Part shown: positions 51,574-61,594 of the stretch, in pieces | How positions within the stretch are numbered: position 1 is the stretch's first letter | Layout of the letters: each line of letters opens with the position of its first letter | Source: Chitinophagales bacterium | Lineage (GTDB): Bacteria > Bacteroidota > Bacteroidia > Chitinophagales > UBA2359 | Length of the DNA: 64,000 nt | Reading direction: 5' to 3' | Assembly (NCBI GenBank): GCA_020628375.1 | Contig: JAHDFD010000001.1 | Span: forward strand, 205,332-269,331 | Notes under the pieces: generated by a model | Databases searched by the model: none | What the model was told of the DNA's origin: nothing | Seen by the model: the letters and a program-made list of their open reading frames with translations, nothing else | Program-made: the position numbers and the translations under genes

Positions 51574-51658
51574 TCAAATTCTATTCTAAATAAAAACAGA
51601 AAGATAGTATTTACTAAACCTTCCCTTACAATTTTTCTTTAACTTTAAACTAGTAATT

Positions 51659-51806
51659 CAAGTTGCGATGTATGATGACATTTTTGTACATAGACGACTG
51701 TTTAACAGACCACAGACCACAAAACCTTACTTTTCACGATTATAATGGTTTTTTTGTGGACAGTGGACTATTGTACTGTTGACAGTTGAGATTTATCGCA
51801 ACTTAG
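51659..51806. mobile_element. MITE-like element, family A (copy 1, intact)
   Basis: ~148 bp with terminal inverted repeats AAGTTGCGAT (51660-51669) / ATCGCAACTT (51795-51804); the inner halves also pair imperfectly ('TTTTTGTACATAGACGAC...' with 'GGACTATTGTACTGTTGAC'). Flanks share only a partial direct repeat (TAGTA). No ORF. Ends 25 bp before the GMC gene, so it may carry that gene's upstream signals. Confidence 0.8.
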
Positions 51807-51831
51807 GTTAGTAGATATTCAAATAATTCGT

Positions 51832-60384: not shown

Positions 60385-60912
60385 ATGAAGTTAGAAGCGG
60401 CAAAACAGGAATTTATACAAACCTGGGGGACTTTAGGTTCTAAATGGGGAATTAATCGAACAATGGCACAAATTCATGCTTTTCTACTTTGCTCGAGTGA
60501 ACCACAATGTACAGAAATGATTATGCAGTCGCTGAATGTTTCGCGTGGTAATGTGAATATGAATTTACGTAAACTTATGGAATGGCGACTGGTAATGAAA
60601 CAACATAAATCAGGTGAAAGAAAGGAATTTTTCTTTGCAGAAAAAAATGCTGTTACCATTTGTAAGCGTATTGCCGAAGAACGTAAAAAACAAGAGCTGG
60701 ATCCTGCTCTGCATACCCTTAACCAAATAGTTGAGCAATTAGAAATCACTTCTGAAGAAGATAAAGAGTTTCATGAAACAGTAAAAGAATTTGCTTTGAT
60801 AAGCAACCATACAAATACTATTATCAATAGTGTTATCAAAGCTGAAGAATCATGGATACTTAATAAGTTCTTATATTTCGTTAAGAACAACCAGAAAGGT
60901 GCAGAATACTGA
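60385..60912 (+). CDS. GbsR/MarR-family transcriptional regulator
   Basis: 175 residues. Winged-helix region ~15-100: 'FIQTWGTLGSKWGINRTMAQ', 'HAFLLCSSEPQCTEMIMQSL', 'NVSRGNVNMNLRKLMEWRLV' (recognition helix), 'GERKEFFFAEKN' (wing). Long C-terminal helices follow, probably for dimerisation. Matches the GbsR-type MarR-like regulators of Bacteroidota. Divergent from the kinase-fold gene (173 bp), a possible target. Family A MITE begins 10 bp after its stop. Confidence 0.9.
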   Translation: MKLEAAKQEFIQTWGTLGSKWGINRTMAQIHAFLLCSSEPQCTEMIMQSLNVSRGNVNMNLRKLMEWRLVMKQHKSGERKEFFFAEKNAVTICKRIAEERKKQELDPALHTLNQIVEQLEITSEEDKEFHETVKEFALISNHTNTIINSVIKAEESWILNKFLYFVKNNQKGAEY

Positions 60913-60922
60913 TTATATAATT

Positions 60923-61202
60923 CGAGTTGCGATGTATAATGACATTTTTGTACATAGACAACTGTTTAACAGACCACAGACCACAAAACCCTGATTGTAA
61001 TGGGCAACAAACTTGTGGATACTTTAAAGAAATTCAGTTGGTCAGGAGACCAACTGAGGTACAGACCTTTGTTGATCTCCTGACCAACAATAAAATGTCC
61101 ATAAGTTGATTGCCCATTACACCTAATCTTTACGATTATAATGTTTTTTTGTGGACAGTGGACTATTGTACTGTTGACAGTTGGGATTTATCGCAACTTA
61201 GC
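60923..61202. mobile_element. MITE-like element, family A (copy 2, interrupted)
   Basis: 280 bp with the same ends as 51659-51806 (AGTTGCGAT / ATCGCAACT), flanked by an exact 10-bp direct repeat TTATATAATT (60913-60922 and 61203-61212), a probable target-site duplication. It is split at ~60990 by element B; without B its length matches copy 1. No transposase. Confidence 0.82.
60996..61121. mobile_element. Element B nested in MITE A
   Basis: 126 bp bounded by a perfect 12-bp inverted repeat TGTAATGGGCAA / TTGCCCATTACA, absent from the intact family A copy. Near-duplicate CCTGAT / CCTAAT at its edges may be a target duplication. Inside is a 9-bp perfect hairpin (CAGTTGGTC-AGGA-GACCAACTG, 61035-61056) whose arm also pairs with TCTCCTGACCAAC at ~61077-61089. 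Confidence 0.75.
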
Positions 61203-61279
61203 TTATATAATTTATGTTATAAATTGCACTAATCCTTTATGATACAAATTTAAAAATTAAAAAACGTACAAATTTTCGT

Positions 61280-61343
61280 GTCATATTGAGCGCAATGCAA
61301 TGAAGTCGAAATATAGACACCTCCCTATTTTTCGCGGGATGAC
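61280..61343. repeat. REP-like element
   Basis: Begins GTCATATTGAGCG, contains GAAGTCGAAATAT and ends CGCGGGATGAC, the form of short dispersed Bacteroidota palindromes (GTCATnnTGAGCG...GATGAC). In the rest of the 61203-61594 gap I see no ORF or hairpin. Confidence 0.55.
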
Positions 61344-61594
61344 TTGTGTATTGGGCTTAATTTGATAGTGGTTCACGTTCTCATAAATGTACGATATATT
61401 AAAATTAAAATTGTATGACAATATCTAATGTCCTGAACGCTACGCTTTTGGTGTAATTTTTGCCACATATCCGTATATTAAATTGAAAAGATTCTTTTTT
61501 CTGGAAAGGAAAAGCTCTTCTTCAATTGATATGGCTTTCGAAAAACACATTTCAACTGTGTTCAGACTATTCCAGAGTTATTAAAATAAGGAAT

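Follow-up and report, generated by a model that had tools for sequence, protein, structure and literature searches.

Does the hairpin-rich stretch behind a regulator gene of a Chitinophagales-like bacterium record two successive insertions, one mobile element landing in another, and if so, what were these elements and how did they move? We examined this question in a window of 64,000 nucleotides (G000:C30:205332-269331), which belongs to a genome (G000) of 3.3 Mb in 41 contigs that is 69% complete. An initial annotation had described two distinct non-coding mobile elements at this place, with element B inside a copy of element A (A2). In the sequence of the window, TTATATAATT occurs at both 60913-60922 and 61203-61212, the AGTTGCGAT/ATCGCAACT ends of A2 lie at 60925 and 61190, and B occupies 60996-61121, with the length of 126 bp and the 12-bp perfect ends first described. 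The inverted arms measure 22 nt in A and 31 nt in B, the latter being 84% complementary. The features of the locus are as follows.

60385..60912, + strand: upstream gene, HTH regulator; best NCBIfam match CudC, below cut-off
60914..60919, + strand: left target duplication of A2, TATATA, an exact match to 61204-61209
60920..60995, + strand: left half of A2, beginning ATTCGAGTTGCGAT; 93.4% identity to the 24-copy A consensus
60990..60995, + strand: left target duplication of B, CCTGAT, which belongs to A (the last 6 bases of the A2 left half); one mismatch to CCTAAT at 61122..61127
60996..61121, + strand: element B, TGTAATGGGCAA...TTGCCCATTACA, 126 bp
61037..61054, + strand: REP palindrome 1 in B, GTTGGTCAGGAGACCAAC
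61071..61088, + strand: REP palindrome 2 in B, GTTGATCTCCTGACCAAC, inverted relative to palindrome 1
61122..61127, + strand: right target duplication of B, CCTAAT, which belongs to A
61122..61203, + strand: right half of A2, with the end ATCGCAACTTAGCT; 93.9% identity to the A consensus
61204..61209, + strand: right target duplication of A2, TATATA
51656..51808, + strand: A1, an intact A with a TAGTA duplication; 153 bp, 98.7% identity to the consensus

The regulator gene ends in TGA, one base ahead of the target duplication of A2. When 60900-61230 was compared by BLAST with its own genome, nearly all of the 82 matches were copies of B or A. The pattern AGTTGCGATN{100,130}ATCGCAACT was found at 15 places in this genome, versus 0 for the reversed control, and the B-end pattern at 29 forward and 25 reverse places (control, 0 and 1). 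The loci drawn from this genome hold 22 near-full-length copies of B, plus one that was set aside for an identical flank. The initial annotation had proposed looking for further copies of both pairs of ends and for a parent IS element with matching transposase ends; the copies were found in plenty (two-ended, 32 of A and 28 of B), and the parent was not found. The multi-copy families, their ends and the controls bear out the description of two distinct non-coding elements, and their multiple copies in G000 make the nested event a real one, of a kind already known. Neither codes for a transposase, as had been stated: the sole ORF of at least 60 aa inside A2 is 60 aa long and runs through the hairpins. 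With terminal inverted repeats (TIRs), a target duplication at most copies and no transposase gene, A and B are new MITE families within a known class, and the nesting as such is ordinary.

Very probably, A and B are unrelated MITE families moved in trans, with A inserting at TANNTA and B then inserting into A with a REPIN-like cargo. The TIRs of each would be recognised by a transposase that is coded elsewhere and most likely belongs to the DDE type. A would have entered a TANNTA site just behind the stop of the regulator gene, duplicating TATATA, and B would later have entered a TA-centred site midway along A, duplicating 6 bp of A; B would spread by means of its TIRs, carrying the inverted REP pair along.

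The 32 copies of A with both ends lined up define the element as ATTCAAGTTGCGAT...ATCGCAACTTAGGT, commonly ~145-156 bp long and reaching 5 bp past each AGTTGCGAT motif. Identity to the consensus is at least 92% in 22 of the 24 aligned copies, the lower two being L050 (76%) and L078 (89%). In 27 of the 32 copies, exact direct repeats 5-8 bp long adjoin the ends directly (6 bp in 20, 7 bp in four, 5 bp in two and 8 bp in one), mostly with the form TANNTA; the other five copies lack them. This count is cleaner than that of an earlier shuffle control, in which 37 of 55 rows had at most one mismatch versus a shuffled mean of 17 and a maximum of 25, and whose rows include copies counted on both strands and chance pairs. 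The 10-bp duplication initially claimed for A is rejected, since ATT is element sequence: on the left side of A2 the element begins with these bases, on the right side they are native flank that matches by chance, and the leading T of the right-hand TTATATAATT is A2's own last base. The duplicated target is thus TATATA only, 6 bp. A1 had been described as intact with only a partial flank match; it is intact, and its flanks carry an exact 5-bp duplication, TAGTA. A 2-bp TA duplication of the IS630-like kind is disfavoured because L033 duplicates TTGATA, without TA beside the right end, though the flank matches revealed no paralogous empty site of A. For A2 itself, no orthologous empty site was readable in the congener G001, where the orthologue of the regulator gene shares only 57% identity. 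A single DDE transposase would not usually make duplications of variable length, and the 5-8 bp range in A counts against the explanation that we favor.

Two further kinds of A derivative were seen. A second split copy, at L028:1325-1571 (G000:C34), is interrupted by another hairpin element of ~95 bp with TTTAAAACGATTTTT/AAAAATCGTTTTAAA arms and a AGACGTAGCA/TGCTACGTCT core. At L057:2098-2127 and L047:3038-3067 there are 30-bp elements that consist of little beyond the two A ends, with 7-bp and 6-bp duplications, respectively; the former is explainable by deletion between AGTTGCGAT-like repeats within A.

The order of events proposed at the outset, A and then B, is supported by comparison of the copies: intact A occurs without B, B occurs in unrelated flanks, and the duplication around B in A2 is A sequence, all of which points to A having inserted first and B later.

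A third MITE family, E (~200 bp, e.g., L062:1468-1665), is a frequent host of B. Its ends are GGTAGTG...CACTACC, and exact 8-bp duplications surround several copies (L019, L020, L021, L062, L063). A ~120-bp repeat with TTGAGCGCAATGCAATGAAGTCGAA, just downstream of A2 (window 61239-61357), has 88-95% matches in some ten other loci, including L064 (twice), L003, L016, L022, L042, L043, L077 and L131; in L064 an E element surrounds it.

Copies of E provide paralogous empty sites for B: those without B (L062, L057, L063) have a single 6-mer at the B site, and those with B (L019, L021, L022, L023) have two. Since B occupies an identical site in four E copies, the two may have moved together as one unit, yet the B sequences in those four copies form no exclusive clade. 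The B copy at L015:1501-1626 has no duplication and takes its left flank from one E site and its right flank from another, the pattern expected of recombination between two copies of B within one E. This copy lends something to the alternative that neither A nor B transposed at our locus and that the nested unit came about by recombination between older repeats. A2, however, has matching duplications both for A (exact) and for B (5/6), its left flank is unmatched at any other locus, and its right flank is matched only from position 32-39, by the 61239-61357 repeat. We therefore regard recombination as highly improbable here and proceed with two transpositions, A followed by B.

The insertion of B follows a target rule. 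Its 6-bp duplication is exact in 16 of 27 copies and has at most one mismatch in 22, compared to means of 1.8 and 5.0 when the flanks are paired at random by shuffling; the remaining five have two or more mismatches, and the same 27 copies give no duplication at widths of 4, 5, 7 or 8 bp. Before this count, four of eight extra candidates were dropped as chance or wrong pairings; it includes the 58-bp element of L042, added by hand, and leaves aside small B-type pieces in L043, L044 and L060, as well as the 28th copy, in L022, because its left flank equals that of another copy. TA stands at the center of the 6-mer in all 27 copies, 7 bp to the right of the center in 24 and 7 bp to the left in 21, from which we derive the target TA-N5-TA-N5-TA. 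Because many B copies sit within E, this pattern comes partly from shared flanks; copies without an E match (L002, L007, L008, L010, L011, L013) mostly obey the rule. For B in A2, the duplication CCTGAT/CCTAAT is imperfect by its one mismatch, and the left outer TA is absent. The congener G001 holds diverged copies of B, with 73-82% identity and somewhat different ends, several of which have the 6-bp duplication and the TA spacing.

What B carries raises a second question about how it moves. Its interior consists of two inverted palindromes, GTTGGTCNNNNGACCAAC. The pattern TTGGTCN{2,5}GACCAA finds 78 palindromes in the genome; among the 50 listed, 28 belong to B-type elements, 8 surround a Y1 transposase gene on contig C12 and 14 are elsewhere, and in 11 stretches around these 14 places the palindromes have no paired B ends (the one in L147 is a pair). 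For the C12 gene (L133:1444-1959), the match to Pfam Y1_Tnp scores 23.1 bits (cut-off 23) and that to the NCBIfam model REP_Tyr_transpos (REP-associated tyrosine transposase, RAYT) 67.9 bits, below the cut-off of 80 (E 8.6e-19, residues 4-151). Arrays of TTGGTC...GACCAA palindromes lie on both sides of this RAYT-like gene (L133:1261-2800, G000:C12). A second Y1_Tnp match, on C32 (L131), contains three in-frame stops.

B could accordingly be viewed as a REPIN moved by an IS200/IS605-like RAYT, with its TIRs as mere flanking hairpin arms: its core is two inverted REPs resembling those at the RAYT locus, and it holds most of the listed palindromes. Y1 transposases of the IS200/IS605-like REP-associated group are not known to make target duplications. 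B, on the other hand, duplicates 6 bp with a fixed TA center, such duplications also flank versions that have ends of this kind but no REP, and free-standing REPs without B ends occur in the genome, so that REP and B are separable units. One-REP versions of 92 bp (L061, L069, L070, L071) and the REP-free 58-bp version in L042 keep an exact 6-mer in three of five cases; REP-free TIR elements that still have a 6-bp duplication are that of L042 (exact) and L093 in G001 (one mismatch), the latter with ends similar to those of B and a different hairpin inside. Deletions between short direct repeats within B would be expected to produce such shorter variants. Movement of B by a RAYT is in our judgment very unlikely, and we keep to transposition through the TIRs. 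Like REPs, BIMEs and REPINs with their RAYT, B has a core of two inverted REPs, which match those of the resident RAYT (a gene whose own match is below the NCBIfam cut-off), in a genome with a RAYT-like gene and such palindromes beside it. Unlike them, its REPs are enclosed by ~30-bp TIRs and, rather than inserting without target duplication, it shows 6-bp duplications and empty sites in E. We thus read B as an element with TIRs and target duplication whose core of inverted REPs, being like those of the RAYT locus, is a REPIN-like cargo. It is a tentative proposal, with somewhat less than an even chance of being correct, that B spreads REPs independently of their own tyrosine transposase. In this view an element with a strict TA-heptad target took up a REPIN and now serves as the chief carrier of REPs of this type in the genome, and the TIRs, which in similar form hold a different hairpin in the congener, would be an exchangeable vehicle for hairpins.

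The position of A relative to genes shows a bias. A simple longest-ORF call puts 23 of the 32 copies of A no more than 40 bp behind a facing stop codon, compared to 70 of the 285 TANNTA sites that lie between genes in the window and in the A loci (Fisher p ~2e-7). By a similar ORF method, stops face 4 of 27 B copies within 40 bp (L005, the second copy of L009, L012, L071). Folding of the 306-nt nested unit is predicted to give one hairpin (-119.1 kcal/mol, z -12.8) in which B occupies the loop of A. If transcribed, this hairpin may affect the 3' end of the upstream mRNA. Rfam gave just two sub-threshold microRNA-type matches to the hairpin (23.9 and 22.4 bits versus gathering cut-offs of 99 and 55.5). 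A could be kept behind stops for a role as a 3'-end hairpin (a terminator or mRNA stabiliser), and not solely as a parasite, which both the excess near facing stops and the predicted fold would suit. Its orientation toward the stop is unbiased, however (left end facing in 13, right end in 10), the TANNTA target can overlap TAA and TAG stops, and selection against insertions elsewhere would yield the same pattern. We consider such a role possible but rather doubtful; it would be compatible with transposition of A.

The search for parents and relatives covered the transposase families PF00665, PF01609 and Y1_Tnp (PF01797). The first two have no match in G000 or G001, both of which are incomplete, and in the loci read the ends of B and A pair over short distances only, with no transposase between them. 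One scan of a genome collection with the B-end pattern gave 22 stretches and no parent element; copies of B came from Chitinophagales bacterium MAG-147 only (L104, L107, L118, L119, L121), which is apparently the same as G001 because the sequences coincide, and the other stretches are chance-like, judged from their flanking letters. The viral contigs gave just three chance-like stretches with this pattern. The sequences of A and B appear to be the lineage's own: plasmids gave no match, and among 99 related genomes a combined query matched three, namely the genome itself, G001 (B only) and G068 (one REP hairpin). The missing parent is weak evidence, since repeats frequently drop out of assemblies of this kind and the genomes are not complete.

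How do these elements compare with known systems? B starts with TGT and ends with ACA and makes a short duplication, as do IS481, IS1202 and Tn7-like elements (TGT...ACA), which are possible kin of its parent. IS481 targets NCTAGN. B differs from this group in duplicating 6 bp in a TA heptad and not at a dif-adjacent site, and no PF00665 match was found in G000 or G001. IS1202 is described as having TGT/ACA ends, TIRs of 24-26 bp and 5-bp duplications (PMC10132070). Known bacterial MITE families include NEMIS/Correia, RUP, Nezha and a Porphyromonas gingivalis MITE (PMC3733652, PMC2817692, PMC4596501). Like these, A and B are short, non-coding, multi-copy and mostly intergenic, with TIRs, target duplications and hairpin folds; compared by description only, they are unlike them in their targets (TANNTA for A, TA-N5-TA-N5-TA for B) and in the REP cargo of B. 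The publications found on nested MITEs concern eukaryotes, judged from their abstracts; among the papers listed, titles and opening lines of abstracts contain no description of A or B; and the literature consulted on a GTTGGTC palindrome with a transposase offers only known proteobacterial REPs (PMC2817692).

Nested insertions reveal which of two MITE families was active earlier, and in this case paralogous empty sites are available within one genome. The most interesting parts are the TA-heptad target of B, its REP cargo and the place of A behind stops. The B family connects MITEs and RAYT-dependent REPs, classes that are usually kept apart, and its target rule would make the missing transposase easier to recognise. 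With its bias toward stop codons, A offers a simple case in which to ask whether MITEs shape the 3' ends of mRNAs.
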